Under the pieces are notes generated by a model. It was not told the origin of the DNA. It saw only the letters and a list, made by a program, of their open reading frames with translations, and did not search any database. Source: a virus. Taken from it: a stretch of 64,000 bases of DNA. Position 1 is the first letter of the stretch, and every line of letters begins with the position of its first letter. This document shows, piece by piece, positions 39,869 to 40,848 of the stretch. The stretch spans positions 46,390-110,389 of IMG/VR virus record IMGVR_UViG_3300017605_000140, one strand, 5' to 3'. A program made the translations under genes and the position numbers.

Positions 39869-39962
39869 CTGAATAATATTAGAGGAGTCGAACCTCAAAC
39901 TCTATCCATAGTTCACCAGATAATAATCTGGTAGCTGATACCGTCAGCTTTAACATATTCAG
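39869..39962 (-). ncRNA. tRNA-like RNA with extended acceptor and irregular anticodon arm
   Basis: It has a D-arm (AGCT-GACGGTATC-AGCT), a T-arm (GAGG-TTCGACT-CCTC) and a variable region of class II length. However, the terminal helix is about 12 bp with one bulge (CTGAATA with TATTCAG, then TGTTA with TAATA). The central arm ACCAG/CTGGT closes an 8-nt loop ATTATTAT. No normal anticodon can be named. It could be a decayed tRNA, a tRNA mimic or a tRNA with an 8-nt loop. Confidence 0.6.
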
Positions 39963-40466: not shown

Positions 40467-40471
40467 AAAGA

Positions 40472-40547
40472 GCACACTGGCGGAATCGAACCGCTAACCA
40501 ACTGCTTTGCAGGCAGTCTCCGAACCACACAGATTAGGTCAATGTGC
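40472..40547 (-). tRNA. tRNA-Cys (GCA)
   Basis: Anticodon arm ACTGC-CTGCAAA-GCAGT. T-arm GCGG-TTCGATT-CCGC. The D region is long and irregular. Confidence 0.82.
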
Positions 40548-40609
40548 AAGCGCCGGGCCTTTAACCGTTAGGCACGTAGGTACGGGGTATTTCCTACATC
40601 ACCGGCCGT

Positions 40610-40686
40610 GGATTTGTAGCGATTCGAACGCTAGTCCTGAGAAATTCCGCATGCGGTTTTAGTCTCAGTCGAAACCTTCCAAACCC
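40610..40686 (-). ncRNA. Minimal tmRNA-like RNA (tRNA-like domain only)
   Basis: A 77-nt RNA with an acceptor stem GGGTTTG/CAAATCC that carries the G3-U70 pair read by alanyl-tRNA synthetase. The D-like segment GAAGGTTTCGACT replaces a normal D-arm and matches the 5' signature of bacterial tmRNA (GGUUUCGAC). GGAC stands before the T-arm TAGCG-TTCGAAT-CGCTA, as in tmRNA. Discriminator A follows. In place of an anticodon arm, a 6-bp stem (CTGAGA/TCTCAG) closes a 20-nt loop with a tiny CCGC/GCGG hairpin. No tag reading frame, no stop codon and no room for the usual pseudoknots. A normal tRNA is excluded by the lack of a 7-nt anticodon loop. Confidence 0.8.
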
Positions 40687-40775: not shown

Positions 40776-40777
40776 GT

Positions 40778-40848
40778 ACCCGCAGAGGGATTCGAACCCC
40801 CGACATTCGCCTTGTAAGGGCGGTGCTCTCCCGCTGAGCTATACGGGC
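40778..40848 (-). tRNA. tRNA-Val (TAC)
   Basis: Anticodon loop CTTACAA on CGCC/GGCG. D-arm AGCTCAGCGGGAGAGCA; T-loop TTCGAAT; acceptor GCCCGTA/TGCGGGT. Confidence 0.88.

Follow-up and report, generated by a model that had tools for sequence, protein, structure and literature searches.

The closest described counterpart of the RNA analysed here is that of mycobacteriophage DS6A, listed in the accessible text of PMC4131195 as a "TLD only" tmRNA, consisting of the tRNA-like domain (TLD). The same text relates that a TLD-only molecule similar to that of DS6A strongly inhibits tmRNA when expressed in E. coli (Mao 2009, via PMC4131195, PMC11915505), reportedly independently of alanine charging, and that titration of SmpB was suggested (PMC4131195). 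A 2025 tmRNA database restates the DS6A inhibition; of its 97,179 sequences, nine are classed as "standard, no CDS" (PMC11915505). In tmRNA, the G3-U70 pair is a main identity signal for alanyl-tRNA synthetase (AlaRS) and is completely conserved, and the region of the D-loop motif interacts with SmpB (PMC3985003). A Thermus TLD was crystallised with SmpB as a construct in which 25 nt of the 5′ end and 34 nt of the 3′ end are joined via a UUCG loop (PDB 2CZJ; PMC3985003).

The element described below is of the same kind as the DS6A RNA, to which we liken it by published description. The kind is therefore already known from DS6A, and the statement in the initial annotation that no phage RNA of this form had been described falls with the "TLD only" entry in the accessible text of PMC4131195. 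What is new is the size of the family, its covariation, its independence from tRNA arrays and its invariant G3-U70 pair.

A 78-nt tmRNA-like gene beside tRNA-Val

The window, the whole 64,000-nt stretch of DNA that was analysed, corresponds to bases 46390-110389 of a virus record of 110,389 bases. Since this record encodes terminase, tail-sheath and tail genes and is syntenic with isolated Streptomyces phages, the element is phage-encoded. The relatives of the record are the Streptomyces phages LuckySocke, Alone3, GiJojo and pSt2308. ARAGORN called 28 tRNA genes on the record. The element lies on the minus strand, as do both of its neighbors: upstream, tRNA-Val(tac) (40776..40848; ARAGORN), whose placement before the element is kept in Streptomyces phages; and downstream, a tRNA whose sequence gives the anticodon gca for Cys (40471..40547), which ARAGORN missed and RF00005 scores at 31 bits. 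A covariance model found only one such element in the 110-kb record; the other match there, at 26.5 bits, is a tRNA-Ala. Elsewhere in the window, between two tRNA-Ile genes, a weak match to the tRNA-Sec model at 39873-39959 (minus strand; 28.4 bits, below threshold) is probably a class II tRNA, with a long variable arm, that ARAGORN missed.

From G1 (40686) to A73 (40609), the gene reads 5′ to 3′ GGGTTTG GAA GGTTTCGAC TGAGA CTAAAA CCG CATG CGG AATT TCTCA GGAC TAGCG TTCGAAT CGCTA CAAATCC A. CCA is not encoded at its 3′ end. The initial annotation had the right place, 40610-40686, but its length of 77 nt omitted A73 at 40609; the gene is 78 nt long and occupies 40609..40686 on the minus strand. 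Its 7-bp acceptor stem pairs GGGTTTG (40680..40686), which holds G3, with CAAATCC (40610..40616), which holds U70 and is followed by A73; both strands are assigned from the sequence and the family alignment. The tmRNA D-loop motif GGTTTCGAC (40668..40676) stands without a D stem, and a D-loop GGNTTCGAC lacking a D stem is a feature of tmRNA. The P2 stem, defined by covariation, is formed by TGAGA (40663..40667) and TCTCA (40638..40642), and is followed by GGAC (40634..40637), the tmRNA signature that precedes the T-arm. The T-arm, TAGCG-TTCGAAT-CGCTA (40617..40633; sequence and family alignment), is perfect. The spacing from GAC to GGAC is 30 nt.

Each of the features that had initially been read from the letters, namely G3-U70, GGTTTCGAC in D-arm position, GGAC, a perfect T-arm and a 6-bp stem with a 20-nt loop, is present in the sequence; the stem has 6 bp when C19-G50 is counted. 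What had been missed is that the loop also contains a small hairpin, CCG-CATG-CGG (40647..40656), which caps P2 at the site of the mRNA-like part of full tmRNA and is conserved and covarying in most family members.

When run on a short stretch of sequence, the bacterial tmRNA model RF00023 aligned to the element end to end (model positions 1-374), with 11 nt taking the place of 303 positions of the model. The score of 33.0 bits (E=2.7e-12) is below the gathering score of 47 bits; Rfam at the gathering threshold did not report the window element, and ARAGORN made no call at its place in the window. Model R2, a covariance model made from other viral sequences alone, none of them from Streptomyces phages, gave the element 84.8 bits (E about 1e-18). 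With RF00023, the copies in LuckySocke, pSt2308, BRock and Alone3 scored 57.1, 61.0, 64.5 and 36.8 bits, respectively, and the GiJojo copy also exceeded the gathering score (relatives above it: range 57-64.5 bits). Matches to RF00023 were found in 40 phage records, 38 of them over the gathering score, and the over-threshold matches are all 66-83 nt long. The mitochondrial tmRNA model RF02544 had no match in the Rfam scans. The element is no tRNA by its parts: it has no D stem, no anticodon and a 20-nt loop, and the tmRNA model outscores the tRNA model. The mRNA-like domain, with its tag reading frame and pseudoknots, is absent. The end-to-end match to RF00023 and the family comparison support the identity initially proposed from the letters, the tRNA-like domain of tmRNA with an alanine-type acceptor and no tag frame.

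In other records, ARAGORN miscalls the element: it reports a tmRNA whose tag is implausible at L072:5905-6228, tRNA-Glu at L091:8486-8576 and tRNA-Arg at L125:1899-1981.

Family size, covariation and lack of a tag frame

The proposed identity implied that the element would recur in related phages with its G-U pair and GGTTTCGAC kept. We found it, in synteny after tRNA-Val, in five isolated Streptomyces phages (LuckySocke, Alone3, GiJojo, pSt2308 and BRock), and both the pair and the motif are conserved in relatives. None of the five records annotates the element as RNA. In GiJojo, a hypothetical protein, gene 44 (L006:6002-6244), is annotated over the RNA; this annotation is probably spurious where it overlaps the element.

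Our first search pattern, GGTTTCGAC-(10 to 40 nt)-GGAC-(4 to 6 nt)-GTTCGA, matched at least 120 viral contigs. Stricter patterns, which were counted in full, left G3 free and fixed U70; the first pattern fixed neither. By length of the gap, the stricter patterns matched 65 contigs at 30 nt, 93 at 31, 64 at 19-29, eight at 10-18 and 11 at 32-50, and a GGATTCGAC form of the pattern matched 31 viral contigs. Because contig counts fall sharply above a gap of 32, chance matches are unlikely. Combined, the stricter patterns yielded 272 viral contigs with 177 distinct elements, 174 of which have an acceptor stem of at least 6 bp.

Every one of these 174 elements has G-U as pair 3-70, while acceptor pairs 4, 5 and 6 range over GC, CG, AU and UA with compensation, and P2 pairing in the same set is far over that in shuffles. 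The acceptor lies outside the first search pattern, and nearly all of the matches listed for that pattern have G3-U70 and A73; pair 3-70 is G-U in 88 of 90 elements among them, and the remaining two are mis-framed by small indels. When only sequence anchors were used to place the pairs, 81-89 of 89 elements had a canonical pair at each of P2 positions 1 to 5, compared to about 35-40 in shuffles. In a fitted alignment, which is biased towards structure, 96.3% of cells pair versus 63.8% when shuffled, and the covariation score is 0.77 versus 0.15; the anchored test (P2, T-arm) is free of that bias. Since single-sequence folding of the window element only mildly beats shuffles (z -1.8), the structural evidence is comparative. 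Acceptor, P2 and T stems covary across the family and, judged by this comparison, the element is under structural selection.

What lies between the P2 strands differs between two classes. In the main class, an A-rich bulge is joined there by a small hairpin of variable sequence (CCGCAYGCGG, CCGCUUGCGG or CGC-GCAA-GCG). In the short class, of 63-67 nt, P2 is merely capped by a tiny loop, such as GCGA in L061 and L133. There is no space for a tag here, because the region between the P2 strands is reduced to a capped stem. Among the matches listed, a GCN codon followed by an in-frame stop within the molecule is absent from 62 of 90 distinct elements. As read from the sequences, a tag frame is impossible in most members.

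We also noted variation at the 3′ end and in related RNAs. A C follows A73 in about 91% of the 174 distinct viral elements, and the full CCA is encoded in 51 of them; retention of C74 may serve 3′ processing. Two records contain, close to the normal element, a second TLD-like one that has diverged and whose altered T-loop has no TTC (L051:5-81 and L133:592-668); the L133 copy also lacks GGAC, and model R1 scores the two at 42.4 and 26.4 bits, respectively. The Microbacterium phages Quenya (L152:4939-5027) and Dismas (L158:1939-2027) contain an unannotated TLD-like RNA of about 89 nt adjoining tRNA-Gln, with G3-U70, a diverged D-loop and no GGAC, which may be a further variant of the element. 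Some distant blast matches are full-length tmRNA, permuted tmRNA or diverged RNAs. Two Salinibacter phages (L153 and L154:2657-3032) have a full-length tmRNA that is not annotated as such (RF00023, 80 bits), and the Synechococcus phage S-CRM01 has a permuted tmRNA (L156:1980-2152; 82.5 bits) that is unannotated in its record.

As a general account, carriage as a passenger of tRNA arrays is rejected: for 64 of 84 distinct viral elements, the sequenced locus contains no tRNA. A host gene in a virus bin is likewise rejected: bacterial genomes seldom carry the element, and the bacterial copies examined have phage-type genes, such as those for terminase, exonuclease or helicase, beside them. The strict pattern had nine matches in bacterial species genomes, three of which are ordinary permuted cyanobacterial tmRNA and six of which score as the element, and model R1 matched four of 395 genomes of one actinobacterial class. 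Plasmids searched for the element gave no match.

In the 40 phage records with the element, many of which are fragments so that absence is only indicative, we found no SmpB and, with RF00023, no full-length tmRNA. By contrast, bacterial genomes carrying the element encode SmpB in nine of nine cases and full-length tmRNA in eight of nine. Since no SmpB was found in the phage records and the bacterial carriers have their own SmpB and, in eight of nine cases, tmRNA, the RNA would act on host machinery.

Candidate functions during infection

The element is homologous to tmRNA, has a selected structure and no tag frame, and comes from phages in which we found no SmpB. We propose, with a probability of roughly 0.6, that this phage gene encodes a TLD-only tmRNA without a tag, which competes with host tmRNA and blunts trans-translation in infection. 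Host tRNA-processing enzymes would release the RNA from the transcript of the tRNA cluster; it would then receive CCA and be charged with alanine by host AlaRS via G3-U70 and A73. Host SmpB and EF-Tu would bind the charged RNA, which would then compete with the tmRNA of the host, both for SmpB and for the vacant A site of non-stop ribosomes. With no resume codon, tag or stop codon to offer, it would leave the nascent chain accepted or blocked but untagged, and the end effect would be blunted trans-translation. The steps of processing, charging, SmpB and EF-Tu binding and delivery to non-stop ribosomes are modeled on tmRNA biology (PMC8012679). The initial suggestion that a tag-less RNA could act as a decoy is plausible, with outside support from the inhibition caused by a similar TLD-only molecule.

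Of the alternatives, the one that survives best is a tag-less rescue device, although we consider it unlikely. Here, the charged RNA and host SmpB would take the nascent chain, the SmpB tail would clear the mRNA, and release would follow via ArfB or peptidyl-tRNA hydrolase. The gain, as proposed for tag-less mitochondrial tmRNA, would be freed ribosomes and truncated phage proteins that are not tagged for proteolysis. The invariant G3-U70 pair suits a role that needs charging; mitochondrial tmRNA without a tag frame is still conserved together with SmpB and is thought to be helpful (PMC11915505); and a survey of 3,213 Actinobacteriota genomes found arfB in 2,245 (PMC11633108). But the sole experiment on such a molecule that is reported in the accessible text of these sources is one of tmRNA inhibition (PMC4131195, PMC11915505). 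A phage release factor completing the rescue is rejected, as no member of the RF-1/ArfB family was found among 19 phage records.

A pure sponge for SmpB (or AlaRS or EF-Tu), for which ribosome entry would never be needed, accords with the charging-independent inhibition and the SmpB titration proposed in the accessible text of PMC4131195. We regard it as improbable, since the G3-U70 wobble is fully conserved while adjoining pairs vary, which would be unexpected if charging were irrelevant. Because the published inhibition reportedly needs no alanine charging, a plain SmpB sponge does not explain the invariant pair; were the RNA only a sponge, G3-U70 should drift to G-C or A-U like its neighbors, and a charged, ribosome-entering RNA is favored. 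The pattern suggests that charging matters in nature and that the RNA probably does more than titrate SmpB. From these sequence comparisons, we would rank inhibition of trans-translation above tag-free rescue, and rescue above a pure sponge.

The RNA might instead serve as bait for a host defence directed at tmRNA or at RNAs that resemble tRNA. CoCoNuT defence systems contain domains similar to SmpB, and their predicted targets are translation RNAs (PMC11090510), but no link of these phages to hosts with such systems was seen, and the broad spread of the element better suits a universal target such as SmpB, and we think a bait role very improbable.

Least credible is that the element is a decayed tmRNA, the remnant of an attachment site or an unusual tRNA whose D-arm has degenerated: ssrA does serve temperate phages as an attachment site and ARAGORN does label some of these elements tRNA, but over 174 sequences the domain retains its two halves, with compensatory changes, whereas attP would copy only the 3′ part, and the element has no anticodon, no D stem and a better score with the tmRNA model than with the tRNA model. 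An ssrA attachment-site remnant is rejected, as both ends are present and co-evolving, and so is a permuted two-piece RNA with a hidden partner, as a single RNA carries the two strands of the domain. We looked through the rest of the genome for a full-length tmRNA of which the element could be a decayed copy, and found none; decay, which the initial annotation had named as an outcome that would undo its reading, is rejected as well, the element being kept at the same place in five Streptomyces phages.

Inhibition of host trans-translation remains our preferred reading, and the family, which is strongly conserved in phages, most likely jams the host ribosome-rescue system. A broader generalization, which we hold only tentatively, is that TLD-only tmRNAs are a large phage-specific family that depends on alanine charging, and that they enter non-stop ribosomes, take the nascent chain and jam or re-route rescue rather than merely soaking up SmpB.

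Comparison with described tmRNAs and TLDs

The accessible published record names one phage, DS6A, with a TLD-only tmRNA; 177 distinct elements on 272 viral contigs, together with those of five isolated Streptomyces phages, turn a one-phage curiosity into a widespread phage strategy. The family offers a clean test of whether and how phages interfere with trans-translation. Its invariant G3-U70 pair predicts that charging is needed, whereas the published overexpression work, as described in the accessible text, found no such need.

Like the "TLD only" ssrA of DS6A, the element is phage-encoded and has little beyond the tRNA-like domain and no tag coding sequence. It differs in belonging to another phage and host group and in the small P2 hairpin that is conserved in the window element and most relatives. 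With bacterial tmRNA (RF00023), which acts with SmpB, it shares the G3-U70 acceptor, A73, GGTTTCGAC, P2, GGAC and the T-arm, but it is 78 nt long compared to about 360 and lacks the mRNA-like domain, tag frame, resume codon and pseudoknots. The full-length tmRNAs of Streptomyces phage Annadreamy and Salinibacter phage SRUTV-1 are likewise phage-borne, and that of Annadreamy lies within a tRNA cluster; unlike the element, they are about 300-376 nt long, keep the middle part and are presumably able to tag.

The tag-less mitochondrial tmRNAs of jakobids and oomycetes also have a tRNA-like domain minus the tag reading frame, and the plastid tmRNAs of Mallomonadaceae, of about 65 bp, likewise have no tag reading frame (PMC11915505). 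These RNAs are organellar, however; the mitochondrial genes are usually permuted, and the window element is not matched by the mitochondrial model. The Thermus construct (PDB 2CZJ) is man-made and without CCA, but in size and architecture it is near-identical to the natural short class of 63-67 nt, and such an RNA binds SmpB. The tag-less phage RNAs are natural counterparts of the construct that was crystallised as a TLD with SmpB.
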